This document shows, piece after piece, positions 37,963-63,156 of a stretch of DNA of 63,574 nucleotides. Both the position numbers and the translations under genes were made by a program. Within the stretch, counting starts at the first letter, position 1. The number at the start of each line of letters is the position of its first letter. Origin of the DNA: a virus. The DNA is taken from positions 1-63,574 of IMG/VR virus record IMGVR_UViG_3300046777_002930. One strand, written 5' to 3'. A model generated the notes under the pieces. It worked only from the letters and a program-made list of their open reading frames with translations, was not told the origin of the DNA and made no database searches.

Positions 37963-37980
37963 GTGTATAAAAATATATAA
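37963..37980 (+). promoter_or_regulatory. GTGTA/TATA late-type promoter motif
   Basis: GTGTATAAAAATATATAA, 31 nt before the ATG at 37994 counted from the G. Confidence 0.5.
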
Positions 37981-37993
37981 AAAAATAAATTTT

Positions 37994-39337
37994 ATGTTTA
38001 GGTGGATTTATCTTAAGGCTTTGAGGGCTAAAAAAAGAATATTAAAAAAAGAAAAAAATAAAAATATGCCAATTATTACAAACGAAAATGAAAATACCAG
38101 CGGCGACGATCTTGAAGAAAAAGAACACCGCACTTTGTTTGGATTTTCAACAAAAAATGTCTTTGCGTCCAAGTCGCTTAACTTTATTTATATAATAGTG
38201 ATGGTAGTGGCGACGGCTTTTGCCTTTCACGCTCTTTCTTTAATATTAACAGGGTGGAGCATGGGCTTAATATTTTTAGCTGCGCTTTCTGTGGTTGGAT
38301 TGCCTTACTGCATTAAGATAATAATGTACGGGCGCGAGACGTTTGAATATAAACACGCCGCCCTTTGCTTAATTATAAGCCTGCTTCCGACTATATTTGA
38401 CTTTGTTGGATTTTATTCAGAAACAAGTGTTAAGTCAGCACTTCAGACAACTAAGTTCGAAGTGTTAGAGAAAGTTAATTACTTTGATAAAGAAGTAAGA
38501 AAGTCAATTAGTAAACAACTTTTATTATTAGAAAACGAGACTAACTCTATAAAGACAAAAATAGAACAAGAACATACCACCAAGCTTAAGGAACTTAATA
38601 ATAAAACTAATGACGCCGCAAAAGACCTAGAGCAACAATTTAATTCTAAATATAAGCAGCTTAGCGATAAAGTTAATGACGCGGAGCAAGCATTTATAGA
38701 TGAAACAGAGGGGGTTAGAGGAAAAGTTACATCTGGCGTCGCTGGAGTCGGTCCAAGAGCTAAAGAATTAGAAGCCGATATTAGAAAAGCTAAAGCCGAG
38801 GTTGATTTAGCAAAAAAGGAATTAGAAAATAATAAAGAAAAAGAAATAGAGGCTTATAAGGCTAATATTTTACTTGAAGAAAGAGGGCTTGAATCTAATA
38901 AGAATAAAGAACTTGAAAAAATACAGAAAGAATATGAAACAAAAAAAGCTTCATTAGAACAAGGAGTATTAGCAATAGACGGATTGGTTTCTGTTAAGGA
39001 CGGAGAAGAGGGTTTGATTTTTAGTGTAAATAAAGCTAAAACTTTTGAAGAATTAGCCGATACTTCTATTAAGTTAAATAGCGCAATTAACGTGGTTAGC
39101 GCCAAATTAAATACCGAACCTCAGTTTATAAAATTTAAAACTGATAATGTAATTAATTTATCTTTTAGCGCCCTGCTTAGAGGAGATATTACGGCTTTAA
39201 TTTGTTTTTTGCTTGCTATACTATTAGAAATAGTTGACACTGTTATAGTTTATATGGTAAGAGGCGTTAAAACTCAGAAAAAAGCTAGTTATTCTAAAAT
39301 TAGAAATATAAGAGAAAGCGTAAAATATAATTTTTAA
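37994..39337 (+). CDS. membrane protein with long coiled coil
   Basis: 447 residues. Three or four N-terminal spans (about 60-85 FIYIIVMVVATAFAFHALSL, about 90-108, about 122-140), then about 240 residues of heptad-like coiled coil (about 150-380, Lys/Glu-rich), then a C-terminal span ITALICFLLAILLEIVDTVI (about 398-417). The layout resembles DUF4407-type membrane proteins. Expected in the inner membrane with the coil in the cytoplasm or periplasm. Function unknown; start codon uncertain because an ATG at 38066 is also possible. Confidence 0.7.
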   Translation: MFRWIYLKALRAKKRILKKEKNKNMPIITNENENTSGDDLEEKEHRTLFGFSTKNVFASKSLNFIYIIVMVVATAFAFHALSLILTGWSMGLIFLAALSVVGLPYCIKIIMYGRETFEYKHAALCLIISLLPTIFDFVGFYSETSVKSALQTTKFEVLEKVNYFDKEVRKSISKQLLLLENETNSIKTKIEQEHTTKLKELNNKTNDAAKDLEQQFNSKYKQLSDKVNDAEQAFIDETEGVRGKVTSGVAGVGPRAKELEADIRKAKAEVDLAKKELENNKEKEIEAYKANILLEERGLESNKNKELEKIQKEYETKKASLEQGVLAIDGLVSVKDGEEGLIFSVNKAKTFEELADTSIKLNSAINVVSAKLNTEPQFIKFKTDNVINLSFSALLRGDITALICFLLAILLEIVDTVIVYMVRGVKTQKKASYSKIRNIRESVKYNF

Positions 39338-39397
39338 TTTTTTTGAAAAATCAAGCTCTATGTAAATAATATATTTAAATATAGCCTATAAATTATT

Positions 39398-39814
39398 ATG
39401 AAAATAGAAAAAGATTATCCTCATCTTGGTAGAGTATTTTTAAACTTATTGTCTTCTAATAAAGACTTCAAGGTTAGATTTGAAGCATTCGCGCCTGAAG
39501 TTTATTCAGAAGTTCAATCATACGTAACTAATCCAAATTGTACTTGTAAGGCTAAAATTTCGGAATACGTGAAAAACAATAAAGAAAAATGCGCGGATTT
39601 CGTTAATTTATTTTTATTGGAATTTGATGTCGATGTAGATCTTGATAAAATTAATTCAGAGGTAAACGCGGAAATTGGTATGGGCAGAATTATAAGAATA
39701 AAAAAATCAGAATGGGTTAATTTTAACAAAAATATGATTGATCAAGGGATTAGATATAGAGGTTTTTCTGTTGTTCCAGTTGATGACGAGCATATTGATG
39801 TATACATATTGTAA
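39398..39814 (+). CDS. hypothetical protein
   Basis: 138 residues. A Cys pair NCTCK (about 48) and alternating charged helices; KINSEVNAEIGMGRIIRIKK and YRGFSVVPVDDEHIDVYIL at the end. No family recognised. Two bases before the membrane protein gene that follows. Confidence 0.65.
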   Translation: MKIEKDYPHLGRVFLNLLSSNKDFKVRFEAFAPEVYSEVQSYVTNPNCTCKAKISEYVKNNKEKCADFVNLFLLEFDVDVDLDKINSEVNAEIGMGRIIRIKKSEWVNFNKNMIDQGIRYRGFSVVPVDDEHIDVYIL

Positions 39815-39816
39815 TT

Positions 39817-40125
39817 ATGTTATTTTTTGATATTTTAGCTTATGTAGTATTATCTATAAGCGTAAGCTTCATGTGGAGCTTCTCTGAAATATTTTCACCT
39901 GTCAGAAACCTTGTGGCGCGAATTCCATATATTAGGCGCCCATTAATATGCCCAGAATGTAGTAGTTTTTGGATGGGTTTTTTAGTTAGTTTTTTATATA
40001 ATCCTTTATTTTTAGACCTTGGAATATTGTCTTATCCTTTTTGTGGATTAGTTACGCACTTATTTGCGTGTTTTTTATATAAAAAATATTTCTCCCTTAA
40101 AAAGGGGTTAGAGTCTTTCATTTAA
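39817..40125 (+). CDS. membrane protein, DUF1360-like
   Basis: 102 residues. Two or three spans (about 5-20, about 48-62, about 66-88) and the motif RPLICPECSSFWMGFLVSFL, which is the C-P-x-C-x2-FW-x-G signature of DUF1360-like inner membrane proteins. Function unknown. Last of a three-gene + unit. Confidence 0.7.
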   Translation: MLFFDILAYVVLSISVSFMWSFSEIFSPVRNLVARIPYIRRPLICPECSSFWMGFLVSFLYNPLFLDLGILSYPFCGLVTHLFACFLYKKYFSLKKGLESFI

Positions 40126-40144
40126 TAATTATATACATATTTTA

Positions 40145-40158
40145 GTGTATATATATAC
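40145..40158 (+). promoter_or_regulatory. GTGTA/TATA motif without a clear gene
   Basis: GTGTATATATATAC just before an ATG that opens a frame of only 12 codons. Transcription from here would run antisense into the virion-like genes at 40310-41990. The 40160-40309 stretch also holds GGAGG before a 14-codon frame; I see no convincing gene. Confidence 0.35.
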
Positions 40159-40309
40159 TATGAATAAACTTGATGGAGTGGCGGCGCTTGGGATTTAGGT
40201 TGCGTTCGACCAGTTTAATTGACGTTATTTATTTGTATTTATCTTATTATTGTAACAATAATTTATTGGAGGAAGTTAGTTAAATGAATTATTTAATTTT
40301 TATAATTAG

Positions 40310-40744
40310 TTATTCAATTTCTAAATAGGTCATATATCCTTTCACCGAGGCAGCAACAATATTACCAGCCGGGACAACTTCTATAATTAGAGCCTCCCCC
40401 TCTTGTAAGTAAAATCCGGAGCTTTTTGAAAAAATTTCATAATCTCCGTATATAGCGGTTCGAGTTGTTAGATCTATAGACCTGGCGGTACTATTAATAA
40501 TGAATAAATCTGTTGAATTTGGAAGTCTTTTGTATATTCTAACGCTAGCGCTGGAGTCGATGATGGTATAATTATCATTGGTAAACTGCCAAGATAAACC
40601 CGTAATAAATTGAGTTTTTCCAGCCGGAACAGCAGTTGCTATGTAACTTTTCACAGGGGCGGCTGTAACGGTTCCACTTAAAGTTTGAAAATGAACTGTT
40701 CTACCGTATATACTTGTTGGTGTTAATAAATTTATATTTGCCAT
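40310..40744 (-). CDS. hypothetical virion-like protein
   Basis: 144 residues, beta-rich and low in charge: VHFQTLSGTVTAAPVKSYIA, GKTQFITGLSWQFTND, GFYLQEGEALIIEVVPAGN. Composition typical of phage structural (fibre or decoration) proteins. Last gene of the three-gene minus unit led by the Thr/Pro adhesin at 41466. Confidence 0.6.
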   Translation of the reverse strand: MANINLLTPTSIYGRTVHFQTLSGTVTAAPVKSYIATAVPAGKTQFITGLSWQFTNDNYTIIDSSASVRIYKRLPNSTDLFIINSTARSIDLTTRTAIYGDYEIFSKSSGFYLQEGEALIIEVVPAGNIVAASVKGYMTYLEIE

Positions 40745-40755
40745 AATTTTAATAA

Positions 40756-41469
40756 TTAGTTTATAATAATATCTTTATATGTCTGCATGTTTACCTTGAG
40801 AGAGCAAACTGCCTGACTTGGATAAGGAAATGGGTTACCTGAGCTACCAGCGCTAGCATATGGTCTAAGGTAACCATATATAGCATCTCCAGGATTAAGA
40901 TAGTAGGGTACGCTTTTTAATGAAAAACTAGTGGCAAGAACTATACTTTCTGACATATTAGCAGGAACTGTACTTGAAGGAGTTGATTGTATAGCTCCCA
41001 AGTATACTAGAGATCCGTCTATAATATAACTTTCAAGTTGTAACAGCATTTCCTGACTCGTTCTCGTTGGAGTGAAAGTTAAAGCTGAACCCTTTCTAAT
41101 GAATAAGTCAACAGACATTGCATATGCGTTCAGACCTGAGATACCAGCAATACCGCTCCGCCAATATGACTCCAATCCCATGTTAGAATTGTTATCAGCA
41201 TTCGTTACTACATCTACAACGTCCATCCATTTGTATGTTTTCGCTGTTATTTCGTTAATTTTTATTATTTCTCCTTCCGAAGATGTGTTTCTAATTATTT
41301 CAGTCGGCAAGGTCAATTTTCTTTCCCCGTTAGGGTCATAGGGGTCATATGGTACTTGTATCGTTGTCGATGTTGCATTACAATAGTTGCATGACCATGT
41401 TCCGGTTTTTGGTTCTCTGATTTGATGTAAATCAACAAATTTAGTTTCAATTTTTATTGGCGTTATCAT
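40756..41469 (-). CDS. hypothetical virion-like protein with CxxC
   Basis: 237 residues. [10 protein letters not shown] (about 24-33) may bind zinc; the rest is beta-rich ([40 protein letters not shown]) and shares the style of 40310-40744. ATGA overlap with the upstream adhesin (41466-41469) means coupled translation and a likely partner role. Confidence 0.6.
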
Positions 41470-41990
41470 AAATAATAATTCTTAATCTCTGAATATTCAG
41501 AGTCTAATGTATCAAGGTTAAGTAAAGCTTTTACCCAAGCGTTTAAATTATTTGGAGTTATCGTAGGAGTTACGGTGGGCGTAGGAGTTACGGTGGGCGT
41601 AGGAGTTACGGTGGGCGTAGGAGTTACGGTGGGCGTAGGAGTTACGGTGGGCGTAGGAGTTACGGTGGGCGTAGGAGTTACGGTGGGCGTAGGAGTTGAT
41701 GGAGTAACTATTTTTCCCTGATAATCGGAAAGCTTTAGGGCTTGTACGCCAAGGTTTAAATCTATACAGTTTTCGGCTGTCTTATCTATAGATTTTGTTT
41801 CAAAAATATTATTTAGGAGCTGAGACGTGATAGTAATAGTAGAAGCTGATTCGTCTACCTCTGCTTGAATGCCATTAAGTAATTCGGCTCTTGTTGCGGA
41901 TGATGGAGAAATTATTCCAACATTAGAAGATAAATTAAAATTATCTCCTAGGTTATCTGCAATTGACGACAAGCTAATAAAAATCTTCAT
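41466..41990 (-). CDS. Thr/Pro-repeat virion adhesin, short form
   Basis: 174 residues. The N-terminal domain ([40 protein letters not shown]) is shared with 12399-13649 and with the gene from 63157. A stalk of PTPTVT repeats (about 98-145) follows and a short acidic C terminus replaces the Cys-rich head of the first paralogue. Leads a minus unit with two virion-like genes. Thr-rich stalk is a candidate O-glycosylation substrate. Confidence 0.75.
41572..41697 (-). repeat. 18 bp in-frame tandem repeats coding PTPTVT
   Basis: Seven nearly perfect copies of GTAGGAGTTACGGTGGGC. Coding, in frame, no spacers. Confidence 0.92.
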
Positions 41991-41994
41991 ATAA

Positions 41995-42017
41995 ATAATA
42001 TATATGTCTTAATACAC
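41995..42017 (-). promoter_or_regulatory. GTGTA/TATA late-type promoter motif
   Basis: Minus strand GTGTA (42017-42013), then TTAAGACATATATATTAT, before the ATG at 41990. Back-to-back with the + motif at 42073. Confidence 0.5.
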
Positions 42018-42072
42018 TTTTTATTTAACTAGTCTAGTAAGTTTTTTTATTCTATAAATTAAATCGATAACA

Positions 42073-42095
42073 GTGTATTTTTATATATAATATAT
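42073..42095 (+). promoter_or_regulatory. GTGTA/TATA late-type promoter of phoH
   Basis: GTGTATTTTTATATATAATA, 34 nt before the ATG at 42107. Confidence 0.5.
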
Positions 42096-42106
42096 AAGCA
42101 ATAAAT

Positions 42107-42919
42107 ATGTCAAAAAATAAAAACAAAACAGCGCTAAATAAAAACCAAATTACAAAAAGTGAAAAAGACAAGTCTGAGCAAATTGAAAAAAAAGATTTAT
42201 CTATTCATGTAAGCCAGCGTCCAAAGATTAATTTTAATTTAAATATTAAAGAAAGATCAGATCTAACAGAAAAACAAAAGAAAATTTTTGAAATTGCCGC
42301 TGCGAAAAATACAAAATGCGTATTTATAGATGGATTATATGGCTCTTCTAAGTCGTATTTAGCCGTGATGTCTTCATTAAAGCTTTTGAATGCTAAAAAG
42401 GTAGATGAAATTATCTTCATAAGAAATCCAGTAGAATCGTCTACTACTGGAAAGATAGGTTTTATTCCTGGAACTAGCGAAGAGAAAATGGCTCCTTATA
42501 ATGCGATACTATTTGATAAGTTAGAAGAGATGCTTTCGGAGTCTGACATCGCAAGGTTAAAAAAAGACAATAGAATAAATTGTCATCCAGTTGGATTTGT
42601 AAGGGGTCGCTCTTGGAATTGCAAAGCCGTCATAGTAGATGAGGCTTCTTCCATGACTTGGGATGATCTTTTCCTTATATTGACTAGATGCGGAGAGTTT
42701 ACAAGGATATTTTTTATAGGAGATTCTGTTAATCAAAACGACATTGGAGCTAAGTCAGGATTTAGAAAAATGTTCGACCTTTTTAATGACGAAGAGAGTA
42801 GAAATTTTGGAATTCATTGTTTCGAACTTAGGGAATACGCAGACATTGTTAGGTCTGGATTATTAAGATTTGTTATGGAAAAAACTGGTTTAATAAAAAA
42901 TCCGAATAGCGATGTATAG
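42107..42919 (+). CDS. phoH: PhoH-like ATPase
   Basis: 270 residues. LTEKQKKIFEIAAAKNTKCV, then a Walker A variant DGLYGSSKSYLA (about 80-91; Ser in place of the usual Gly before Lys), FIRNPVES (about 107), IGFIPGTSEEKMAPY (about 118-132) and Walker B AVIVDEASSM (about 176-185), IFFIGDSVNQND (about 203-214). All match PhoH, an RNA/DNA-binding ATPase domain widespread in phages. The Lys-rich N-terminal 45 residues are extra. Confidence 0.9.
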   Translation: MSKNKNKTALNKNQITKSEKDKSEQIEKKDLSIHVSQRPKINFNLNIKERSDLTEKQKKIFEIAAAKNTKCVFIDGLYGSSKSYLAVMSSLKLLNAKKVDEIIFIRNPVESSTTGKIGFIPGTSEEKMAPYNAILFDKLEEMLSESDIARLKKDNRINCHPVGFVRGRSWNCKAVIVDEASSMTWDDLFLILTRCGEFTRIFFIGDSVNQNDIGAKSGFRKMFDLFNDEESRNFGIHCFELREYADIVRSGLLRFVMEKTGLIKNPNSDV

Positions 42920-42935
42920 TTATTTTTTAAAAAAA

Positions 42936-43598: not shown

Positions 43599-43697
43599 TT
43601 TATGTAATATATTACATACATTATAGAGTTTTTGGAGTAAAAAATAGATTATTTGCAATCATTTTGATATAATATTATTATATCAAATAATAAAACT

Positions 43698-44222
43698 ATG
43701 AATCTATACTGTAAAGAATGTTTTGCCAAAATAGAATACAAATTTTCTAAGCCTAAATTTTGTCCAGAATGCGGATTGGCAATAGGAAGCGTGATTTTAA
43801 ATAAACCAGTCATAAAAAAAACCGAAACCGACGTTTCAGATTCCGATAATCTAAAAAGAATAAAAGATTTAGAAAACCAGATTCAGGCTTTAAAAAAAAT
43901 AAATAAGGTCGTTGATGAAGAAGACGAGGAGATAGATGGCGCTGAAGAAATAGCTGAAGATGATTATATTGAAATACAAAGGCATATAAATAGCTTTAAA
44001 AAATTAAAAAATAAACCGGGGGTTATCATTGAGAAAGATAATTCTCAGCAAGGGATTACATTTGGTCAATTAATCGAATCTTCGTCTAATTCGACAGCTA
44101 ATGATTTAAATGATTTTAAATTTTCCGAAGACGACAGAAAGCCTAACAAAAGTAAAGAACAAATTCTTGAAGAGCTTAGGTTAGAGGCATCCAGTTCGCC
44201 TCGCCTAATTGAAATAGATTAA
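43698..44222 (+). CDS. zinc-ribbon protein with acidic tail
   Basis: 174 residues. N-terminal ribbon YCKECFAKIEYKFSKPKFCP then ECG (four Cys), a coiled-coil stretch (about 55-75) and a long acidic part (VDEEDEEIDGAEEIAEDDYI). Eight bases before the sigma-like gene; a co-factor for transcription is a possible inference, comparable in position to phage late co-activators. No family recognised. Confidence 0.65.
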   Translation: MNLYCKECFAKIEYKFSKPKFCPECGLAIGSVILNKPVIKKTETDVSDSDNLKRIKDLENQIQALKKINKVVDEEDEEIDGAEEIAEDDYIEIQRHINSFKKLKNKPGVIIEKDNSQQGITFGQLIESSSNSTANDLNDFKFSEDDRKPNKSKEQILEELRLEASSSPRLIEID

Positions 44223-46120: not shown

Positions 46121-47053
46121 ATGAATTTCTCATGTAAAGAATCTGCGTGTGGGTATTCGTGCGACAATAAAGATGATTTTATTAGTCACGTAAAAAATGC
46201 GCATGGAATTAAAATAGATCAATACTTAAAATGGAATCTAAATAAGAGAGATTTATTTACTAAAGAAATAATTGGATTCAAAAGTTTCGAGCAGTATTTA
46301 TTAACTGATTTCGTTAATAAAAAAAATATGCTATCTTGGCTTAAGTTAGAAAAAGACGGATTATCTAAAAAATTCTTATTGAATAAAATTATTGAACATT
46401 CAAAATTAAAAAGTGTATGCTATTTTCCCTCTTGTTCAGAACTTAGAACCATCTCTTATTTGCCATCAATAAAAACTTATGAATTCTTTTTTCCTGATTT
46501 AAATAGTTTTATCGAATCTACTGGACTTATAAGAAGGTTTAACTACAATAAAAATGAATTAAATTTTAATTTTATTCATAAGAAAAATATAACCATCGAT
46601 ACTAGAGAACAAAAGCCTATTAACCTTATTGATTGTGAGGTGAGTATAGAAAAACTTGAATTTGGAGATTATTCTTCAGATAGACTTTTATCAGTCGAGA
46701 GAAAGTCGTTGAGCGACCTAGTATCGACTTTGTCTTCTGGATTTGATAGATTTAATAGAGAGATTTTAAGAGCAAAAGAAGCTGGTGGATATTTAGTTGT
46801 CGTGACGGAGTGCGATATTAATAAATTTTTATCTTTTTCTTATTCTAGAACTGGAAAATTTGCAAAAGCTTCGTCAGACTTTATTTTTCATAGATTTAGA
46901 GAAGTATGTAAAAATTATCCAGATAATGTACAATTCTGTTTTTCTGGAGGTAGAAAAGAATCATCAAATTTAATTCCGAAAATACTTTCACTTGATGTTA
47001 ATGCTGCTAAATCTTTAGATTTTCAATACTTAATTGAGCAAAATCTTATTTGA
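46121..47053 (+). CDS. ERCC4-type nuclease with zinc finger
   Basis: 310 residues. N-terminal C2H2-like finger (CKESACGYSC ... FISHVKNAHG, about 5-28), a middle domain, then an ERCC4 nuclease: ITIDTREQKPIN (about 158-169), LEFGDYSSDRLLSVERKSLS (about 184-203; GD and ERK are the catalytic residues). The family cuts branched DNA (Mus81/XPF, Hef). Adjacent to the large terminase, so it may resolve branched replication DNA before packaging. Confidence 0.85.
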   Translation: MNFSCKESACGYSCDNKDDFISHVKNAHGIKIDQYLKWNLNKRDLFTKEIIGFKSFEQYLLTDFVNKKNMLSWLKLEKDGLSKKFLLNKIIEHSKLKSVCYFPSCSELRTISYLPSIKTYEFFFPDLNSFIESTGLIRRFNYNKNELNFNFIHKKNITIDTREQKPINLIDCEVSIEKLEFGDYSSDRLLSVERKSLSDLVSTLSSGFDRFNREILRAKEAGGYLVVVTECDINKFLSFSYSRTGKFAKASSDFIFHRFREVCKNYPDNVQFCFSGGRKESSNLIPKILSLDVNAAKSLDFQYLIEQNLI

Positions 47054-47055
47054 AT

Positions 47056-48987
47056 ATGTGGGAAGTTGGAAATCAAGACATAATAATTCCTGAAAGGCAC
47101 TTTAATGAAGAGCTAATAGAAATAAAAGGAGAAATGGATGATGCCACCGCAAGAATAACATTAGCAAAATTTTTAAAATCAAATATTGGACTTACTACGG
47201 AGTTGTTTTTAGGGATTAAGCTAGAAAAGTATCAAGAATTAAATATTAAGGCGATGTTTAATAGAAATTTTTCTATGCTTACATGGGGTAGAGGTGCTTC
47301 TAAGAGTTTTTGCGCAGCTGTTTTTTGTATTTTGCAATGCATATTCGAGCCAGGAACTAAGATACTGATTGCGTCTGCTAATTTTAGAACATCTAGAAGA
47401 CTATTCATGGAAATAGATAAGATGCTGAACGCAAAAGATGCAGGTTTAGCGAAGCAATGTTTTAAAGATCCAGTAAAAAGAAACGATGAGTATGTTTATC
47501 CGGTAGAGTTGCCCCACGGAGGTTCTATTACGGCGATACCACTTGGCGGAGAAAATACTAGAGGCTATCGCGCTTCTGTTCTTATTATTGACGAGTTTTT
47601 ATTAATGCCGAAAGATATCGTTGAGAGAGTTTTAATGCCGTTTATGAGTTCTCCATTAGATGTTGCTGAAAGAATTAGAGTTAGAGAAGTAGAGGATCAG
47701 ATGATTAAAGCTGGAAGAATGCAAGAAAAAGATAGGACTGTTTTTAAAAACGTCAATAAAATGATAACGTTAAGTTCTGCTAGTTATACTTTTGAATATC
47801 TTTTTGAACTTTATTCTATATGGTCTGATATTATCAGGGATCCTAATCTTCTTAATGATTCTGAAAAAGTTGGAGAAGATAGAATGGAAGCTATGAAAAA
47901 TTCTACCTACTTCGTTTCTCAAATGAGTTACGAATCTCTTCCGGAACACATGATTGACCAAGGTGTTATTCAATTAGCTAAAAGCGGTGGCATTAGCCAC
48001 TCTGCCTTCCTTAGAGAGTATTGTGCTAGATTTGTGGATGGTGGAGATGGTTATTTTTCTCCTAAAAAAATGACGCTTTGCACTGTTCCTAATGGTCAGT
48101 ATCCAACTACTAAAATAGTTGGAGATAAGGATAAAAAATATGTTTTAGCTATTGATCCAAGCTTTAGTGCGTCCAAAAGTTCTGACTATTTTGCAATGGC
48201 GGTTATGGAATTAAATGAGGAAGATGGAACTTCTATTTATGTTCACGGATATCAGAAAGCAGGAGCAAGCGTACAGGATCATATTAAGTATTTTTATTAC
48301 TTGCTAACTCATTTTAATATAAAAATGGTTATTATTGATAACGCAGGAGGCGATCAGTTCATAGAGGCAGCTAATGGGTCGGCTATTTTTAAATCAAAAA
48401 ATATGAAGGTCGGCTTTTTTGAATTTAATTCCGATAAAGAGGGGGATGAGTATATAGAGATGCTTAAGGAGGCAAAAACGCAATACAATTCGGATACCGG
48501 AACAATATGTGTCAAGCAGTATTTTACGTCTTCTTTTATTGGAAGAGCTAACAGCTATCTTCAAAGTTGTATAGATCATAAAAGGGTTTGGTTTGCAAGC
48601 GCTTCTTGCGCGCATCCAGATATTGTTAATCAAATGTTTAGCTTAAACATTCCAATAGACTATATTTATCCAAAAGGTATAGACGACGCTCCTGAAGACG
48701 CTATTGAAAGAGCAAAGCTTGGCGTTAGGGATTTTATGGAGCAACAGGATTTTATAATAAAAGATACAAAAGATCAATGCGCTTTGATTCAAGTTTCTTC
48801 AACGGCTCGTGGAACACAGAGCTTTGACCTGCCTGCTCATTTAAGAAGATTAACGACTGCTAATAAGCCAAGAAAAGATAACTATTCAGCATTAATGCTT
48901 GGAAACTGGGCGGTTAAAGTTTTTTTCGACTTAAACTCCGATAAGGCTGAAAAGCCTAAGTATAATTTTACACCCTTTTTTCTATAA
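47056..48987 (+). CDS. terL: terminase large subunit
   Basis: 643 residues, the first ATG; a TTG two codons earlier overlaps the previous stop. ATPase domain: MLTWGRGASKS (Walker A, about 76-86), VLIIDEFLLM (Walker B, about 173-182) and ITLSSASYTFEY (motif III, about 237). Nuclease domain: VLAIDPSFSASKSSDYFAM (about 362) and VIIDNAGGDQF (about 426). It docks at the portal, pumps DNA into the head and cuts it. Follows the ERCC4 nuclease and precedes the portal. Confidence 0.93.
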   Translation: MWEVGNQDIIIPERHFNEELIEIKGEMDDATARITLAKFLKSNIGLTTELFLGIKLEKYQELNIKAMFNRNFSMLTWGRGASKSFCAAVFCILQCIFEPGTKILIASANFRTSRRLFMEIDKMLNAKDAGLAKQCFKDPVKRNDEYVYPVELPHGGSITAIPLGGENTRGYRASVLIIDEFLLMPKDIVERVLMPFMSSPLDVAERIRVREVEDQMIKAGRMQEKDRTVFKNVNKMITLSSASYTFEYLFELYSIWSDIIRDPNLLNDSEKVGEDRMEAMKNSTYFVSQMSYESLPEHMIDQGVIQLAKSGGISHSAFLREYCARFVDGGDGYFSPKKMTLCTVPNGQYPTTKIVGDKDKKYVLAIDPSFSASKSSDYFAMAVMELNEEDGTSIYVHGYQKAGASVQDHIKYFYYLLTHFNIKMVIIDNAGGDQFIEAANGSAIFKSKNMKVGFFEFNSDKEGDEYIEMLKEAKTQYNSDTGTICVKQYFTSSFIGRANSYLQSCIDHKRVWFASASCAHPDIVNQMFSLNIPIDYIYPKGIDDAPEDAIERAKLGVRDFMEQQDFIIKDTKDQCALIQVSSTARGTQSFDLPAHLRRLTTANKPRKDNYSALMLGNWAVKVFFDLNSDKAEKPKYNFTPFFL

Positions 48988-48990: not shown

Positions 48991-49012
48991 GTGTAGAATT
49001 ATACAATAATAT
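48991..49012 (+). promoter_or_regulatory. GTGTA/TATA late-type promoter motif
   Basis: GTGTAGAATTATACAATAAT directly after the terminase stop and about 107 nt before the portal ATG. Confidence 0.45.
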
Positions 49013-49097: not shown

Positions 49098-51056
49098 ATG
49101 ACTCAAAAAAATAAAAAAAATGAAATTCCTGAGGCTGTCATGGCTTCATTAGATGATAATTTGAGCATAGCGGTTGCGTCAACTTGTGAAAGAACAGGTG
49201 AAACATCAATGAGAAGAAATGTGGCTTCTTCTATTACAAAAACTGATAGGTTTTCTAATTTAGAAAAAGGGGTTGTCCCATTTGTTTACGGAACTGGAAA
49301 AGGTAATTATAATTCTAATATTTCAGCCAAAGATGCGATAGTGCTTTGTCAAAAAGCTTATTGGAATGTTCCAATTTTTAGAAATACAATAGATCTAATG
49401 ACGGAGTTTAGTCTCTCTGACATTTATTTAACGGGTGGAAACGAACAAAGTAGAAAATTTTTTAACCTTTGGCTTCAAAAGATAAATAGCTGGGATTTGC
49501 AAGATCAGTTTTACAGAGAGTTTTATAGAAGTGGAAATATTTTTATCTATAAATTCAGGGCAGACTTCAGTAGAGAAAACATGATGAAGATACAAGAAGC
49601 GTTTGGCGCTTCATCCTCTGATGATCAGCAAATTCCAGTTAAATATATAATTTTAAACCCATCTGATATAAATATTGTAACGTCATCTTCTTTTTTAGAC
49701 AATGTTTATGTTAAAATGCTGAATGATTATGAGCTTCAGTCTCTTATAAATCCAAGAACTGAATCAGATAAACAAATAGCTGAAAAGATACCAGAAATAA
49801 AAAATTTATTGGACAAAGCGTCAAATTCTCAAAAAAAGAATATTCCCTCTGGTCTTAATAATGTTGCTCTAGAATTAGATAAAGATAGATTGGTAGCTAT
49901 TTTTTATAAAAAGCAAAATTATGAACCATTATCTGTACCTATGGGATTTGCTGTTCTAGAAGATATAAATTCAAAACTTGAATTAAAAAAAATAGATCAA
50001 GCGATTGCTAGATCTGTTCAGCAAGCCGTGTTAATGATAACGATGGGCGACGAAAAAGTTGGAATGCCAAGCGCTCAAAATTTAGCCTCTATGAGAAAGC
50101 TTTTTGAGAATCAAAGCGTTGGAAAAGTTTTAGTTGCAGATTACACAACAAATGCAAAGTTTGTTATTCCAGATATCGGCAATCTTCTTGATCCTAAGAA
50201 ATATGAAATCTTAGATAACGATATAAGAATGGGCTTAAATAGCATTTTATTTGGAGAAGAAAAGTTTTCAAATACTTCTATAAAAGTAAAAGTATTTTTT
50301 GCTAGATTAAAATATGGTCGTGAAAAATTCTTAAGAGATTTTTTAATTCCAGAAATGAAGGAGGTTGGAAGAGCGCTGGGTTTCAAACAAATTCCTACTC
50401 CAAAATTAGAAGATATTGACTTTGAAGACAATGTATTGATGAGTAGAGTTTATTCTAGGCTTATAGAACTTGGAGTTTTAACTCCAGAGGAGGGATTTGA
50501 CGTATTTCAAAGCGGTAGACTTCCAACGTCTGAAGAAAGTATTGAGTCTCAAAAAAAATATAAAGTATTAAAAGAAAAAGGTTATTACCAGCCATTGATA
50601 GGTGGAGCTAAGGATCCTAACTCACCAGCTGGAACAGTAGGAAATAAAAATCCAGCCGGAAATTCTGGTAGACCGACAGGAAGCGGAGGAAAGCAGCTCG
50701 TAACACGCAAGCAAGCATCGGCGTCAGTTGAGTCAGATAATATAGAAACATTTAGTTGCGAAAAAATGAAGACAGTTTTGGCGTCTATAACATCTCTTGA
50801 AAAAAATATAGAAACAGTTCTTAAGGCTAAATTTAAAATAAAAAAATTAAATAAACAACAAACTGAGATCGTTTCTGATATTGCGATTTTAATTGCTCAG
50901 AATGAAAAATTAGAAAACTGGAATAAAACTTTTGATTTATATATACAGGATATGTCAAGATCAAATCCAGAAATCTATAGCCAAATAGATGAACTTGCTT
51001 CAAATCATGGTATAGATATAAGATCCGCAAGTATTTTATACCATAGTAAAAAATAA
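49098..51056 (+). CDS. portal protein
   Basis: 652 residues. VPFVYGTGKGNYNSNIS, AYWNVPIFRNTIDLMTEF and REFYRSGNIFIYKFRAD are typical of large portal proteins, as is the stem/crown region with RSVQQAVLMITMGD. The C-terminal part includes a Gly/Pro-rich linker (about 515-545) and a helical tail. Position after terL supports the call. Forms the dodecameric head entrance. Confidence 0.85.
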   Translation: MTQKNKKNEIPEAVMASLDDNLSIAVASTCERTGETSMRRNVASSITKTDRFSNLEKGVVPFVYGTGKGNYNSNISAKDAIVLCQKAYWNVPIFRNTIDLMTEFSLSDIYLTGGNEQSRKFFNLWLQKINSWDLQDQFYREFYRSGNIFIYKFRADFSRENMMKIQEAFGASSSDDQQIPVKYIILNPSDINIVTSSSFLDNVYVKMLNDYELQSLINPRTESDKQIAEKIPEIKNLLDKASNSQKKNIPSGLNNVALELDKDRLVAIFYKKQNYEPLSVPMGFAVLEDINSKLELKKIDQAIARSVQQAVLMITMGDEKVGMPSAQNLASMRKLFENQSVGKVLVADYTTNAKFVIPDIGNLLDPKKYEILDNDIRMGLNSILFGEEKFSNTSIKVKVFFARLKYGREKFLRDFLIPEMKEVGRALGFKQIPTPKLEDIDFEDNVLMSRVYSRLIELGVLTPEEGFDVFQSGRLPTSEESIESQKKYKVLKEKGYYQPLIGGAKDPNSPAGTVGNKNPAGNSGRPTGSGGKQLVTRKQASASVESDNIETFSCEKMKTVLASITSLEKNIETVLKAKFKIKKLNKQQTEIVSDIAILIAQNEKLENWNKTFDLYIQDMSRSNPEIYSQIDELASNHGIDIRSASILYHSKK

Positions 51057-52555: not shown

Positions 52556-52574
52556 GTGTAACCCATATAAATAT
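52556..52574 (+). promoter_or_regulatory. GTGTA/TATA late-type promoter motif
   Basis: GTGTAACCCATATAAATAT just before the ATG at 52575. Confidence 0.45.
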
Positions 52575-52880
52575 ATGAATCATTTTTTTATACAAACAAA
52601 ACTATTGCTAACCGGTCAACAAGCGCCATTTACGGGTGAAGCAGTTAATATGGCTAGATCCAGAGACGCGGCATTTACCGCTTACGCAAGCGGAAGTGGA
52701 AGCGTTTTCCTTCAATATAAAAGTCCATTTTTTGAAAATGGATGGGTTGATTTTTATTCTTTTTCCGGATTAAATACGGGATACGCTCTTCCTGCTTATC
52801 TAACAACTCCAGTAACTGAAGTTAGAGCAATTTCAAGCGGAAATGGAAAGTTTTGGTGCGGATTTACCGCACAAAATTAA
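52575..52880 (+). CDS. small virion-like protein
   Basis: 101 residues, low charge, aromatic and Gly/Ser-rich (AYASGSGSVFLQYKSPFFEN, GWVDFYSFSG). Between two fibre genes. Probably a fibre accessory or tip protein; no motif recognised. Confidence 0.6.
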   Translation: MNHFFIQTKLLLTGQQAPFTGEAVNMARSRDAAFTAYASGSGSVFLQYKSPFFENGWVDFYSFSGLNTGYALPAYLTTPVTEVRAISSGNGKFWCGFTAQN

Positions 52881-56568: not shown

Positions 56569-56585
56569 GTGTATAAATATATATA
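56569..56585 (+). promoter_or_regulatory. GTGTA/TATA late-type promoter of the lysis genes
   Basis: GTGTATAAATATATATA, 20 nt before the ATG at 56589 from the G. Confidence 0.5.
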
Positions 56586-56588: not shown

Positions 56589-57185
56589 ATGAAGTTTTTT
56601 TTATTAATTGTTTGCTGCTTGGTTGCTTCTTCTTGTACTGTATATACAGAAAAACAGTCAGAGGCTCTTTCTCGTACTGTTTATGCTACTAAGGATTCTT
56701 TAGAGCAGGCTAGAATAGATTTAGCCGATAAGTACTCTACAGAAACTACGAGGCTTGTTAAACCTCCTAAAAAGAGAATCGATATTCCTCCGGTTTATAA
56801 AAAAACTATAGATGTAATCACTTCGCAGAGTAAGCATTCTCCTACTTATATTGATAAGCAGCGAGTATTAATTATTCCTGAAAAATATAAAGCAGATACT
56901 GTTGTTGTAGTTAGCTCAAAAGAATATGAAGACCTGCTGAAAGACAAAGAAACTTATGAGCAGATAAGAAAAGATTTTGAGAATTTAAATGCGGCTAGGT
57001 CTCAGGTTGACGAAGAGCTTATTAGGCAAATGGAGTATAATGAAAAAATGATCAAAGATCTAAATGTAATGCAAAAAAAGTTAGTCGAAAAAGATTTAGC
57101 AATTTTGCAGAGAAATATTATTATAATTATACTTTTATTAATAATTGGCGGAGCCACTTATCTAAGAATAAAGGGGATACTTTAA
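56589..57185 (+). CDS. candidate unimolecular spanin (lipoprotein plus C-terminal anchor)
   Basis: 198 residues. Signal MKFFLLIVCCLVASSC with lipidation Cys at 16 (lipobox AS-S-C), a long charged and coiled-coil ectodomain (about 90-165), then a C-terminal span NIIIIILLLIIGGATYL (about 176-192). An outer-membrane lipid at one end and an inner-membrane helix at the other is the definition of a u-spanin, which fuses the two membranes at the end of lysis. Next to holin and endolysin candidates, which supports the call. Confidence 0.65.
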   Translation: MKFFLLIVCCLVASSCTVYTEKQSEALSRTVYATKDSLEQARIDLADKYSTETTRLVKPPKKRIDIPPVYKKTIDVITSQSKHSPTYIDKQRVLIIPEKYKADTVVVVSSKEYEDLLKDKETYEQIRKDFENLNAARSQVDEELIRQMEYNEKMIKDLNVMQKKLVEKDLAILQRNIIIIILLLIIGGATYLRIKGIL

Positions 57186-57188
57186 GTT

Positions 57189-57305: not shown

Positions 57306-57355
57306 TTAAGAGATGTATTTAATATAAAATAAAAATATATTAATAATGGGTTTAT

Positions 57356-58006: not shown

Positions 58007-58014
58007 ATTTACAT

Positions 58015-59047: not shown

Positions 59048-59074
59048 AATTATTGTGACATTTTTTATATAATT

Positions 59075-59100
59075 GTGTAAATTTAAAATACAATAAAAAT
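59075..59100 (+). promoter_or_regulatory. GTGTA late-type promoter of the capsid genes
   Basis: GTGTAAATTTAAAATACAAT followed by AAAAAT, 43 nt before the ATG at 59118. Confidence 0.45.
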
Positions 59101-59117
59101 AAATTATTATTTATATC

Positions 59118-60800
59118 ATGCCAAAATTTGAAAATTCTTATATCTGGGTAAAAGATTTGGTAGCAGAAGAGTATAGACCTTCAGAAAAAATAAATTTTCC
59201 ATTTCAAACTATTTTTGCATCTGACCCTATAAGAGTTTTCTTGCCGCAAGAAACTGATATAAATATTGCTAAAGCTGGAATTGATTCTTTAAAACCTTTT
59301 CTGGATTCTTCAATTGATTTAGAAAAAAATTATGATTTAATTGGGGTTGCATTTAATGCTTTTGTTGTTAACAGAGCAAATAAAAATGGGCAAGTAATTT
59401 CTACAGATGTAGCTTTATCTTCCGTTGAGAATTTTAAATTCAAGCCGATGAATATAGAGCATAAGAGAAAAAATGTTGCCGGCTTGATAACTGGCTTTGG
59501 CTTTAGCGAATATGGAACGGATAAGCCTTTAACTTTGGATGAGGTTAAGGATAAAAAAGATCCATTCAATGTTGTCTTGAGCGGTTTTGTTTGGAGAATT
59601 GTAAATGAAGAATTTGCCGATAAGCTTGAAGCTTCCTCGGATCCGTCTTCCGAATCTTATCTTAGTATTTCTACTAGCTGGGAAATGGGATTTAGAAATT
59701 TCAATATAGCTAAGGGGTCATTAAATCTTTCTGAAGCCTCGATTCTTTCTGATGAGGCTGAAGTAGCAGAAATGAAAGATAAGTTAATGCATTTTGGCGG
59801 CAAGGGTTTTGATGATGATGGCGAGCCTTTATTTATTAATTTAATAGGTGAGGTTTTGCCTCTTGGAATAGGTTTTACAAATAATCCAGCAGCCGACGTT
59901 AAAGGCGTTAAGGTTTTTGGATCTAATGATTTAGAATCAAAAGAAGAAAATGAAGTTGAGGAAAAAGAGGAGTCTGACGTGAGTGACTTATCTATAAAAA
60001 GTTCCCAATTAGATGAAAAACTTGTAGAAACAAATATAATTTCAAATAAATTAGACGCGGATGATTTAGCTGCTGCTAATGTTGAAAAAGAAAAAACAAA
60101 AAAGGAAAATAAAAAAATGCTTATAAAATCTATTCAAGATTTAAATGACGATTCTTTAAAACAGATATGCGCTACTGATATTCGCGCTTTATTTGAAGAG
60201 GAAATTAAAAAGGCTAGCGAAAAATTTACCGAGGAGCAAGCTGCTAAAGACAGCGTTATTGCCGAAGCGGAAAAAACAAAGGCTGAACTTGAAGCTCAAT
60301 TAGAAGAGTTGAAACAAACCGGTGAACAATTAAAAGCCGAGCTTGAAAAAATTAAGCTAGAGGCAGAAGCTCGTGAAGCCGAAGAAGTTTTCCAAAATAG
60401 AATGTCTGGATTAGACGAGGATTTTTCTTTAGATGACGAAGAGCGTCAGATAATTGGTGAACAAATTAAAAATTTAGATCAGGAAGCTTTTGACAAATGG
60501 TATAAGGCTTTCAATGTTTTTGCTAAAGCTAAAAACAAAAAAATGATGATGGAGAAAAAAGAGGCTGAAGAAAAGATGAAAGAAAAAGAAGAAAGTAAAG
60601 CCTCCTCTATTGAAACAAAAGAATCTGCTGAAGTGATTGCTTCAGAGCAGGAAGAAAAAGAGCAAGAAGCTGCGGTCGTGCTTGAAAAGGCGCAGGCTGA
60701 AGAGGTTGCTCTTCCAAATGGAGCGATTGCTGAAGATAGCCTTAGGCAAAAATTTGCCAAAGCTTTCAATAGCAACACTATCAAAGTAGAAAATAAATAA
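59118..60800 (+). CDS. prohead protease fused to scaffold
   Basis: 560 residues. About 1-275: a capsid maturation protease-like domain with FKFKPMNIEHKRKNVAGLIT (about 109-128; His as candidate catalytic residue), SYLSISTSWEMGF (about 180-192; Ser) and VLPLGIGFTNNPAAD (about 248-262). About 330-560: Lys/Glu-rich coiled coil (AELEAQLEELKQTGEQLKAE) typical of scaffolds. Such fusions make both full protein and a shorter scaffold. Followed by decoration-like and major capsid genes, as in other phages. Confidence 0.75.
   Translation: MPKFENSYIWVKDLVAEEYRPSEKINFPFQTIFASDPIRVFLPQETDINIAKAGIDSLKPFLDSSIDLEKNYDLIGVAFNAFVVNRANKNGQVISTDVALSSVENFKFKPMNIEHKRKNVAGLITGFGFSEYGTDKPLTLDEVKDKKDPFNVVLSGFVWRIVNEEFADKLEASSDPSSESYLSISTSWEMGFRNFNIAKGSLNLSEASILSDEAEVAEMKDKLMHFGGKGFDDDGEPLFINLIGEVLPLGIGFTNNPAADVKGVKVFGSNDLESKEENEVEEKEESDVSDLSIKSSQLDEKLVETNIISNKLDADDLAAANVEKEKTKKENKKMLIKSIQDLNDDSLKQICATDIRALFEEEIKKASEKFTEEQAAKDSVIAEAEKTKAELEAQLEELKQTGEQLKAELEKIKLEAEAREAEEVFQNRMSGLDEDFSLDDEERQIIGEQIKNLDQEAFDKWYKAFNVFAKAKNKKMMMEKKEAEEKMKEKEESKASSIETKESAEVIASEQEEKEQEAAVVLEKAQAEEVALPNGAIAEDSLRQKFAKAFNSNTIKVENK
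60117..60800 (+). CDS. nested scaffold protein from internal start (candidate)
   Basis: In-frame ATG at 60117 with AAAGGA 10 nt upstream, exactly where the scaffold part begins (MLIKSIQDLNDDSLKQI). It would give a 227-residue scaffold without the protease, like the nested scaffolds of lambda (Nu3). Confidence 0.45.
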   Translation: MLIKSIQDLNDDSLKQICATDIRALFEEEIKKASEKFTEEQAAKDSVIAEAEKTKAELEAQLEELKQTGEQLKAELEKIKLEAEAREAEEVFQNRMSGLDEDFSLDDEERQIIGEQIKNLDQEAFDKWYKAFNVFAKAKNKKMMMEKKEAEEKMKEKEESKASSIETKESAEVIASEQEEKEQEAAVVLEKAQAEEVALPNGAIAEDSLRQKFAKAFNSNTIKVENK

Positions 60801-60840
60801 TAAACAAATAAATAAACAAATTAACAAATAAATAAAAAAT

Positions 60841-61371
60841 ATGGCTACAATTAGACCTTTTAGAGATTATGATGAGCATGAGGTTGTTAACCTTTTTGCT
60901 TTTGACGGTGGCTTAGCAAATAAAGGAACTTTCGTTACCGCTGCTGGTAGTGGATTTGATCTTTCTGCTGAAGCTGCTTTTGGAAATGACAGTTTTATTG
61001 ATGGGACTGTCTCCGCTAGATTTAACGTCTTAAATAAAGTTACCGCCGCTCCTTCTGGAACTGTTCCAGCTAAGGTTCTTGGAATGATGCTTAAGGATGT
61101 TAGATCGGTTGATGAAAATGGATACCCATTAAAGTTTGAACCACGTAAGGCTGCTGAGCGCGATGTTATCATTAGCGGTGAAGCTGTCCCCGTTGTTAAG
61201 CGCGGATTATTCCTTTATAGCGGAGTTGCTGGAACACCAGCGTTTGGAAGCGGACTTGGTATTAATACCAATGGCGAGCTTATTACTACAAATGATCCAA
61301 CTTTAATGGTTGCTAAAGCGCTTGGTCCAAAAGACGCAAACAACTTTGTTTTAATTGACATTAAGCTTTAA
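60841..61371 (+). CDS. head decoration-like protein
   Basis: 176 residues. Low charge, Gly/Ala-rich, beta-type: VNLFAFDGGLANKGTFVTAA, VPAKVLGMMLKDVRSVDENG, AVPVVKRGLFLYSG. Between protease-scaffold and major capsid protein, the place of decoration or stabilisation proteins (lambda gpD). No direct motif, so the call rests on position and composition. Confidence 0.6.
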   Translation: MATIRPFRDYDEHEVVNLFAFDGGLANKGTFVTAAGSGFDLSAEAAFGNDSFIDGTVSARFNVLNKVTAAPSGTVPAKVLGMMLKDVRSVDENGYPLKFEPRKAAERDVIISGEAVPVVKRGLFLYSGVAGTPAFGSGLGINTNGELITTNDPTLMVAKALGPKDANNFVLIDIKL

Positions 61372-61417
61372 TACAACGCTAAATAAAAAAATAAAATTTA
61401 GAAAATAAAATAAAAAT

Positions 61418-62542
61418 ATGAAAATTAAATTTGAAAAAACACCAGAGCAAGTTGAACTTGTGAAAGCTATGGGTTCAAGTAATAAGGTTCAGGCTCTTGA
61501 GGCTCAGGACGCTTTTGCTGCTTTTATTGCTCCAGTTATTCAGGAGGTTCTTTTACAGGCAGGTACCGCTGCCGCTATTTATGAAGACATGAGCTATGAT
61601 GAGGATGATTCTCCATCTATTCCCGTTGATCTTTATTATGGCGAGCCTGAGGGTACTTTTGCTGTTTGGCAGCAAACGGTTGCCGGTGGTCTTCCTACTC
61701 AACAGATTGGTAGCTTCCAAGAGATCAAGGTTTCTACCTATCCTCTTGATTCTGCTATTAGCTTTGATAAGCGTTATGTTCGCAAATGTCGTTTAGACGT
61801 TGTGGCTAGAGGTCTTGAAAGACTTTCTAATGATGTGCTTATCAAGCAAGAAAGAAACGCTTGGTATGTTGTTCTTAAAATGCTTGCTGATGCTCAAACA
61901 AAAAACGTTAATCATGTTTTTAGGGCTCAAGCTGCAAACGTTTTCCAGGTTGAAGATATCAACAAGGCAATTACTCTTCTCAAGAGATTGAATGCCGCTT
62001 ATAATGGCACTACTCCAGTTGGTAACGAAGGAAGAGGTTTAACAGATCTCTATGTTTCTCCTGAGATTATGGAGCAAATTCGTGGATTTGCTTATAATCC
62101 AGTTAATACAAAATTAGGTCCAGTTGGTGCAACTACTGGCGTTCCTCTTACCGATTCTGTCCGCGAGCGCATTTTCAATGCCGCTGGTATGACTGATATT
62201 TGGGGAGTTACGCTTCATGAGCTTCTTGAGCTTGGCGTTGGCGGCAAATACAATGTTCTTTTCGATCAAATCGCTGGAACAAAGAAATTTGCTAAACCAG
62301 GTGAGGATGTGAATACTCTAGGCTCTGCGTTTGCTGCTGATGATGAAATCCTCATTGGTATCGATCGTTCACGTAGATCATTTATTCGCACATTAGCTGT
62401 TAATGCTGAAACAGGTGGAAGCTTTAATCTTCGTCCAGATGACCAATTTTTGGCTCGCTCTGGCAAGGTTGGTTTTTATGGCGGCTTGGAAGAGGGTCGC
62501 GTCGCCCTTGATGCTAAAGCTGTTGCTGGCATTATTGTTTAA
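61418..62542 (+). CDS. major capsid protein
   Basis: 374 residues, HK97-like in size. AFAAFIAPVIQEVLLQAGTA, VDLYYGEPEGTFAVWQQTVA, LTDLYVSPEIMEQIRGFAYN and a C-terminal RSRRSFIRTLAVNAETGGSF then LRPDDQFLARSGKVGFYGGL are typical capsid features. Codon use (many CGT/CGC, GCT, GTT) is more biased than in the flanking late genes, as expected for the most expressed protein. Followed by a strong terminator. Confidence 0.88.
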   Translation: MKIKFEKTPEQVELVKAMGSSNKVQALEAQDAFAAFIAPVIQEVLLQAGTAAAIYEDMSYDEDDSPSIPVDLYYGEPEGTFAVWQQTVAGGLPTQQIGSFQEIKVSTYPLDSAISFDKRYVRKCRLDVVARGLERLSNDVLIKQERNAWYVVLKMLADAQTKNVNHVFRAQAANVFQVEDINKAITLLKRLNAAYNGTTPVGNEGRGLTDLYVSPEIMEQIRGFAYNPVNTKLGPVGATTGVPLTDSVRERIFNAAGMTDIWGVTLHELLELGVGGKYNVLFDQIAGTKKFAKPGEDVNTLGSAFAADDEILIGIDRSRRSFIRTLAVNAETGGSFNLRPDDQFLARSGKVGFYGGLEEGRVALDAKAVAGIIV

Positions 62543-62563
62543 TAAAAATAAACAAGTAAAATT

Positions 62564-62599
62564 AAAGAAAGCCCCGACTCGTTCGGGGCTTTCTTTTTT
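62564..62599 (+). terminator. intrinsic terminator after the capsid gene
   Basis: GAAAGCCCCGA-CTCGT-TCGGGGCTTTC, 11 bp perfect stem extended by AAA/TTT, followed by TTTTTTA. Confidence 0.95.
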
Positions 62600-62642
62600 A
62601 TTAAATAATCTTTTTTTTTAGTGATATTTATTATCACTAAAC

Positions 62643-62665
62643 GTGTAAACTAATTTATATAGTTA
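62643..62665 (+). promoter_or_regulatory. GTGTA/TATA late-type promoter motif
   Basis: GTGTAAACTAATTTATATAG, 40 nt before the ATG at 62683, just after the capsid terminator. Confidence 0.45.
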
Positions 62666-62682
62666 TATTTTTTTGATTAATT

Positions 62683-63126
62683 ATGATTCCAGCTATTTAT
62701 AATTTACCAGATGCTTATAGAGGCGATGCTTACGGTCCAATTTCTTTAAAAATAAAAGACTCTTCTGGAGGTTATTTAAGTGTTGCCGGAACTGAAATAA
62801 ATCTACATGTAAAAAATAAAAAAAATTGCGCAATAGTTTTAAGCTGGTCCACTCTTGATAATTCTGTGCAGACTCCGGATGATTATACTATAATTTTAAA
62901 AGAAAAAATTGGGTGTAAAATGGGGATGCCTCCTGGGGTTTATGATTATGATTTACAAATATTAAATCAAAAAAAAATGACAACCTATTTAAGGGGCACT
63001 CTTTCTGTGGCTGGTGATGTAACAAGAATAGATTTTTGTGATTGCGAGTTTAATGGCGGGTCTGCTACAGGTGTTGGAAATTCTTTTTGCTCTATTGAAT
63101 CTATTTTTTCTTTATCTCGAATCTAA
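62683..63126 (+). CDS. virion protein, BppU-like N-terminal type
   Basis: 147 residues. IYNLPDAYRGDAYGPISLKI (about 4-23) and PPGVYDYDLQILNQKKMTTY (about 84-103) match the R-GD ... G-x-Y-x-DLQ pattern of small phage baseplate or neck proteins (BppU N-terminal-like). Cys-rich tail (DFCDCEF). Probably a connector or baseplate component. Confidence 0.6.
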   Translation: MIPAIYNLPDAYRGDAYGPISLKIKDSSGGYLSVAGTEINLHVKNKKNCAIVLSWSTLDNSVQTPDDYTIILKEKIGCKMGMPPGVYDYDLQILNQKKMTTYLRGTLSVAGDVTRIDFCDCEFNGGSATGVGNSFCSIESIFSLSRI

Positions 63127-63134
63127 GAAAAACT

Positions 63135-63156
63135 GTGTATATACTCAAATAATATA
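63135..63156 (+). promoter_or_regulatory. GTGTA/TATA late-type promoter motif
   Basis: GTGTATATACTCAAATAATA directly before the ATG at 63157; close to the motif in front of the paralogue at 13649. Confidence 0.5.

Follow-up and report, generated by a model that had tools for sequence, protein, structure and literature searches.

Phage-encoded sigma factors that read late promoters have been described in several systems. The middle and late promoters of phiEco32, which are used by the phage sigma factor gp36, carry a single element, tAATGTAtA, and transcription starts 6-8 bp downstream of it (PMC8948821). The late promoters read by gp47 of Salmonella phage 7-11 have the form GTAAtg-(16)-aCTA (PMC8948821). 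Leaderless messages are known from the Thermus phage phiYS40, whose middle and late mRNAs lack leaders, a feature linked to altered IF2/IF3 expression (PMC3594737), and from Deinococcus-Thermus, where a -10 motif, TANNNT, abuts the open reading frames, the mRNAs are leaderless and a -35 element is not needed (PMC12340547).

Here we analyse one IMG/VR record of 63,574 bases (the window), together with its relatives, in which the short element GTGTA precedes late genes. The nearest known design is that of phiEco32 gp36. Both have a single -10-type element with a TGTA core and no -35 element in front of late genes, and a phage ECF-type sigma factor that directs the host RNA polymerase is the phiEco32 arrangement. 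When the two elements are aligned on TGTA, the phiEco32 start would fall 12-14 nt from the G, which matches the geometry of GTGTA. The core of the clade is, however, GTGTA[A/T] rather than tAATGTAtA, and the phages are unrelated. The phiEco32 elements lie 41-67 nt before the ATG, leaving room for a leader, whereas GTGTA in the clade often lies at 14 nt. Between gp36 and the sigma-like protein of the window (gene start 44230, hereafter 44230) hhalign detected no homology (probability 0.2%), with gp36 entered as a single sequence, a setting in which remote homology may escape.

Late promoters of T4, which depend on gp55, gp33 and gp45, have a TATAAATA element that stands some 13 nt ahead of the start. 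Compared by promoter element, T4 and the clade share a single -10-type element for late genes and a phage protein of the sigma family. Unlike in T4, no TATAAATA-type element was found, and the spacing between GTGTA and the TATA-like DNA behind it varies; in the T4 stretch examined the late elements lie at least 22 nt from element start to ATG and their messages are leadered. Phage 7-11 is alike in that a phage sigma factor reads the late promoters, but its promoter is bipartite and of another sequence. Leaderless late messages, as predicted for the clade, are a feature of phiYS40, for which PMC3594737 describes no GTGTA element or phage sigma factor. The Deinococcus-Thermus -10 motif also stands directly before the open reading frame, but it serves cellular genes and follows the host -10 consensus, and is not a phage-specific late class. 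The separate parts of the arrangement thus have precedents. We found no report of GTGTA as a phage promoter in the literature searched, from which subscription papers were mostly absent, nor did the element, the clade or the combination of parts appear there.

We propose that GTGTA(A/T) is the -10-type core of late promoters across a clade of uncultivated large tailed phages, that RNA polymerase would initiate about 14 nt downstream of the first G, and that the AT-rich, almost G-free stretch behind the core would be suited to melting. The polymerase would most likely be the host core enzyme, redirected by the phage sigma factor 44230 encoded beside terL. Early genes would be transcribed from host TTGACA/TATAAT-type promoters, probably along with the sigma-gene operon in the closest relatives of the window, which would give an early-to-late cascade. 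Many late mRNAs of the clade would be leaderless or carry a leader of just a few nucleotides, and would be translated without Shine-Dalgarno pairing. For the full model, namely GTGTA as the late promoter core, a start at about 14 nt and 44230 as the predicted reader, we estimate from the sequence data a probability of roughly two in three. GTGTA would then serve as a transcription map of the clade readable from sequence, marking late genes, RNA starts and a factor to test.

The window, its relatives and its GTGTA sites

The window encodes a terminase, tail-fibre and other structural genes, tRNAs and the distant sigma-like gene. In many IMG/VR relatives terL follows the sigma gene at a distance of about 2.1 kb. 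Their contigs reach 204,906 bases, so that the window is probably one piece of a phage genome of some 200 kb. Among 50,697 phage records, the best match of TerL to a cultured phage has at most about 29% identity, and 44230 gave zero tblastn matches, so that no cultured phage with 44230 was found there. GTDB genomes yielded five loci, every one labelled as a MAG or an uncultured-bacterium contig; these are probably misbinned phage. Clade contigs have been binned with genomes of Flavobacteriales, Halobacteriovorax and Verrucomicrobiales, binning being weak evidence of a host. The clade consists of large, uncultivated and widely sampled tailed phages, and has no cultured member in the collections searched.

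A sequence-only reading of this DNA had listed GTGTA 15-45 nt before the ATG of ten genes said to lack TTGACA promoters. All ten sites are present, at 18-43 nt when counted from the first letter of GTGTA to that of the ATG, and TTGAC occurs in none of the ten upstream regions. Two further sites, at 48991(+) and 6749(-), were absent from that list (Table 1).

Table 1 GTGTA sites and associated features of the window
Feature	Position	Strand	Remarks
GTGTA core	3122..3126	-	18 nt before ATG of 2404-3108(-)
GTGTA	6749..6753	-	44 nt before ATG of 5660-6709(-); inside an inverted repeat; function uncertain
GTGTA core	13664..13668	-	19 nt before ATG of 12399-13649(-), which encodes a PT-repeat protein
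GTGTA core	37963..37967	+	31 nt before ATG of 37994-39337
GTGTA core	42013..42017	-	27 nt before ATG of 41466-41990(-), which encodes a PT-repeat protein; oriented away from the 42073 promoter
GTGTA core	42073..42077	+	34 nt before ATG of 42107-42919; within 110 nt of ATG in 74/98 orthologues
AT-rich stretch ahead of the sigma/terL operon, which starts at 43698	43652..43691	+	without GTGTA
Sigma-70-family protein, 239 aa	44230..44949	+	region 2, Cys4 linker, region-4-like C-terminus; candidate GTGTA-specific sigma
Terminase large subunit (terL)	47050..48987	+	clade marker; 2.1 kb downstream of the sigma gene
GTGTA core	48991..48995	+	follows the terL stop directly; 107 nt before the gene at 49098, from its position the portal gene
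GTGTA core	52556..52560	+	19 nt before ATG of 52575-52880
GTGTA core	56569..56573	+	20 nt before ATG of 56589-57185
GTGTA core	59075..59079	+	43 nt before ATG of 59118-60800
GTGTA core	62643..62647	+	40 nt before ATG of 62683-63126; kept in 12/12 orthologues
GTGTA core	63135..63139	+	22 nt before ATG of 63157, which encodes a PT-repeat protein

Several sites are conserved among orthologues. At 48991, AAACGTGTAGAATTAT is kept in most close relatives, and GTGTA is found within 110 nt of 95 of the 98 portal orthologues. The orthologues of 52575 retain GTGTA in 16 of 19 upstream regions while the flanks have diverged. The promoter at 59075 probably also serves 60841 and 61418, genes without a GTGTA of their own, and the site at 62643 lies directly behind a terminator at 62564-62596. 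Judged by eye, the product of 42107-42919 reads as a PhoH-like ATPase.

The sigma-like protein 44230 and other candidate readers

By its profile matches, 44230 is a member of the sigma-70 family. Its region 2 matches Pfam PF04542 with 26.1 bits against a cut-off of 24, as do all 33 homologues tested (33/33), while region 4 (PF08281) is matched weakly, in 7 of 33 homologues with a best E-value of 0.0028. The alignment of the family shows four invariant cysteines in the linker. An AlphaFold model of moderate confidence (pLDDT 77.8, pTM 0.41) has a helical C-terminal domain, and its Foldseek hits in the PDB are mostly sigma factors, with probabilities of up to 0.99, a best E-value of 7e-3 and poor domain placement. 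The weak fold matches count against the model, as does a region-4-like domain in a protein for whose sites no -35 consensus is seen.

Homologues of 44230 share 39-50% identity and are syntenic with terL. The RNA polymerase beta subunit (PF00562) is absent from 14 clade contigs, one of them of 205 kb, although these are fragments and a distant viral beta subunit may escape such a search. Thus, the clade contigs give no sign of a multi-subunit polymerase of the phiKZ type, and the host core enzyme becomes the most likely polymerase. We infer that 44230 directs it to GTGTA. The sequence-only reading had regarded this pairing as natural, and it is made plausible by membership of the sigma-70 family, synteny with terL and the failure to find a multi-subunit phage polymerase; it is weakened by the presence of a second sigma-like protein in large relatives. 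A compact sigma/promoter pair without a -35 element would be a useful orthogonal expression part.

This second protein, of about 200 aa and encoded elsewhere as an early gene, could itself read the late core, leaving 44230 with another role. Its upstream region on two contigs (G009 and G010) resembles a host-type early promoter, as expected of a late-gene activator, and GTGTA sites are also found on the contigs that carry it. However, it diverges to 25-34% identity between relatives that share the same motif, against 39-50% and terL synteny for 44230, and no third motif was found that would give 44230 a promoter class of its own. Since the second sigma is the more divergent while the motif stays constant, we favour 44230 and consider its replacement by the second protein unlikely. 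Every contig tested that has the second sigma without 44230 also lacks terL, and such contigs are therefore taken to be fragments.

Recognition of GTGTA by the host polymerase with a host sigma factor, aided by a phage activator or anti-sigma factor in the style of T4 AsiA/MotA or Thermus phage gp39, appears improbable. GTGTAAT can be read as TGTAAT, one base from TATAAT, and the lack of a -35 element recalls -10-only promoters served by a redirected host holoenzyme. Against this, the motif is constant across contigs binned with Flavobacteriales, Halobacteriovorax and Verrucomicrobiales, weak as binning is as evidence of host, and a phage sigma factor is present throughout the clade.

The control of 44230 itself seems to differ between groups. 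Of 21 close relatives of the window, 13 have a sequence resembling a host-type promoter before the first gene of the sigma/terL operon, a loose pattern in AT-rich DNA and so a weak indication, and 2 have GTGTA there. In the group with 59% TerL identity, GTGTA precedes this gene in 15 of 16 cases. The sigma factor may thus control its own gene in some members. A third sigma-like protein, resembling RpoD, is encoded by some large relatives.

Predicted position of the start site and length of the leaders

Across 266 sites, GTGTA is followed by A (0.70) or T (0.21) and then by an AT-rich stretch in which G makes up 2-7%. No conserved -35 or other upstream element was found in these sites. The element had been described as bipartite, GTGTA plus TATA, but there is one core only: a fixed TATA box behind GTGTA was rejected because the spacing varies, and what was taken for TATA is the G-poor AT stretch, which would correspond to the melted region. 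The 266 sites also show small positional signals at -18 and at -13/-14.

The spacing between GTGTA and the ATG, measured from first letter to first letter with the start codon taken as the first ATG of simple open reading frames, has a sharp lower edge. Among 2,148 genes, 86 have a spacing of 14 nt and 4 have one of 13 nt, a fall of about 20-fold; in an enlarged set with one vote per protein family, the weights are 43.8 and 0.7. Where the ATG lies 25-80 nt away, a pyrimidine-purine step is most frequent at positions 13/14 behind the G, with a family-weighted frequency of 0.41 compared with about 0.24 elsewhere; the single-position binomial p-values, uncorrected for the number of positions, are about 1e-4 for this range and about 1e-7 for 17-80 nt. 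In the group that uses Shine-Dalgarno (SD) sequences, none of the 83 genes whose GTGTA lies at most 24 nt from the ATG has one, compared with 12 of the 33 genes whose GTGTA is more distant (p=5e-8). The edge between 14 and 13 nt, the pyrimidine-purine signature at 14 nt and the restriction of SD sequences to greater distances together indicate that GTGTA acts as a -10-type core with a putative start site about 14 nt downstream of the G, a position that rests on base composition.

A start at 14 nt would make the mRNAs of the 14-nt class leaderless, and because the start codon often falls exactly 14-17 nt after the G, the late mRNAs of many relatives probably begin at or beside the start codon. 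This geometry, which points to leaderless or ultra-short-leader mRNAs, did not figure in the sequence-only reading. The window has no GTGTA exactly 14 nt from an ATG, and hence no strictly leaderless gene; for five of its genes a leader of about 4-8 nt is predicted, for the portal gene one of about 93 nt and for others one of about 13-30 nt. A further step would be that the clade sets the RNA starts of many late genes at their start codons by design, with one GTGTA-specific phage sigma factor and translation that bypasses SD pairing, including in members where SD sites serve the other genes. We advance this tentatively, at somewhat less than even odds. If true, it would couple the choice of promoter with the mode of translation initiation. 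The clade allows a direct test of a phage shifting late translation to leaderless mRNAs through promoter placement.

The peak of the GTGTA-ATG distance at 14-16 nt might also be read as a signal in the RNA, for instance an alternative sequence for ribosome binding some 9 nt ahead of the ATG. This is very improbable. Genes less than 10 nt behind their neighbour, which inside operons would need such a signal most, have GTGTA in 18 of 540 cases (3%) compared with 261 of 713 other genes (37%; p~1e-52, with orthologues counted separately). In addition, the distances extend to 60 nt and beyond, the initiator signature is fixed relative to GTGTA and not to the ATG, and GTGTA excludes TTGAC promoters.

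Enrichment of GTGTA and division of the gene classes

Upstream regions (up to 60 nt of intergenic DNA) of the late genes in the window contain GTGTA in 10 of 23 cases. Dinucleotide shuffles give a mean of 1.26, and none of 3000 reached 10 regions. TACAC, the same motif on the other strand, occurs in 1 of the 23. GTGTA ranks first of 1024 5-mers before these genes and is the commonest 5-mer containing G or C; the set is AT-rich, and in its shuffles whichever 5-mer with G or C happens to be the most frequent averages 7 with a maximum of 11. In the early module (13.7-37.9 kb), GTGTA is found in 1 of 34 upstream regions, which is the chance level. From the window alone, the enrichment is suggestive, and the relatives settle the question. 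GTGTA is again first of 1024 5-mers in relatives with TerL identity of at least 89% (78 of 252 upstream regions vs 10.2 expected), in those with TerL identity of 59% (96 of 175 vs 14.8) and in those related through the sigma factor at 39-48% (120 of 403 vs 19.8). Four unrelated phage stretches (MaeS, phiEco32, T4 and FADO) have GTGTA at or near chance, at ranks 215 to 525.

GTGTA before late genes is therefore commoner than in random AT-rich DNA, the comparison on which the sequence-only reading had staked its claim, and enrichment over shuffled controls was found as that reading anticipated. A chance product of AT-rich intergenic DNA would fit the count over the whole window, where GTGTA is not enriched (54 observed vs 61.7 expected), but this explanation is refuted here by the shuffles, by first rank in three independent sets of relatives and by the retention of GTGTA while its flanks diverge.

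GTGTA and TTGAC are nearly exclusive of each other. In five large contigs and the window together, TTGAC occurs in 1 of 114 upstream regions with GTGTA and in 89 of 390 without it (p=4e-10). The two classes also divide by function in a 205-kb relative. Recognisable genes behind TTGAC encode a DnaB helicase, a DNA ligase, an endonuclease, the small subunit of RNR, a kinase and a transposase. The genes behind GTGTA, the majority of which have no family match, include very large proteins (one a tail fibre by PHROGs), a protease and a glycosyltransferase. We infer the labels early and late from these gene functions, and the timing that they imply would follow the same division.

At the level of sequence statistics, the element, its position, its gene class and its start-site signature are established. 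The three sets of relatives, the four near-chance controls, the near-exclusion of TTGAC, the scarcity before operon-internal genes and the functional split all support the proposal of a second, phage-specific promoter class on late genes, and make it very probable that GTGTA marks a late promoter class throughout the clade. For the early class, a strict search of the window for TTGACA-N-TATAAT returned zero exact matches, so the TTGACA promoter of the early module rests on the enrichment of TTGAC. A generic sigma-70 scan of the late region found 79 matches vs 79.9 expected and is uninformative at such AT content. Within the window, 11 upstream regions contain GTGTA only, 12 contain TTGAC only and 0 contain both.

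Predicted GTGTA promoters and nearby repeats

The three paralogous TPTPT-repeat proteins have similar N-termini and long repeats, and a predicted promoter with GTGTA, the proposed -10-type core of late promoters in this phage clade, is found at each of their genes. Since the upstream sequences of two of the three are alike, these GTGTA sites are not fully independent. The predicted GTGTA promoter at 62643 is directly preceded by a terminator-like hairpin. Elsewhere, two GTGTA copies make up an inverted repeat, CGTGTATCAAATTACACG, which may act as an operator, a terminator or a divergent promoter pair.

Features in the window and in relatives
Feature	Position	Remark
Terminator-like hairpin	62564-62596	strong, bidirectional, 14 pairs
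TPTPT-repeat paralogues (n=3)	12399-13649(-), 41466-41990(-), 63157-63573	
Inverted repeat CGTGTATCAAATTACACG	6736-6753	between genes 5660(-) and 6780(-)
CAACC-leader early genes	14878, 16806, 25189(-), 26535(-), 28847(-), 30516(-), 33923(-)	
Additional sigma-like genes (relatives)	L251:14426-15283; L230, L240, L248, L259, L265	second and/or RpoD-like

Early module

The early module (13700-38000) contains numerous short genes and several tRNAs, and its G+C content (35-46%) exceeds that of most flanking late regions (27-37%). CAACC occurs nine times in the module against 2.9 expected. CAACC-rich leaders resembling ACCAACCAACC are common to early genes, immediately 5' of the ATG, in place of Shine-Dalgarno sites.

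Sigma-like genes and gene models in relatives

A second sigma-like gene (~200 aa), distinct from that of the 44230 sigma-like factor, is present in large relatives, some of which also encode an RpoD-like sigma of ~285 aa. At 23 genes among contigs L001-L219, GTGTA overlaps the start codon as GTGTATG (distance 4, from G to the A of ATG); these probably represent a single orthologue family or misassigned starts. In one relative (G004:C1:25504-27290), the terL match is split over two adjacent open frames of 452 and 196 aa, which may reflect a frameshift, a split gene or an assembly error.
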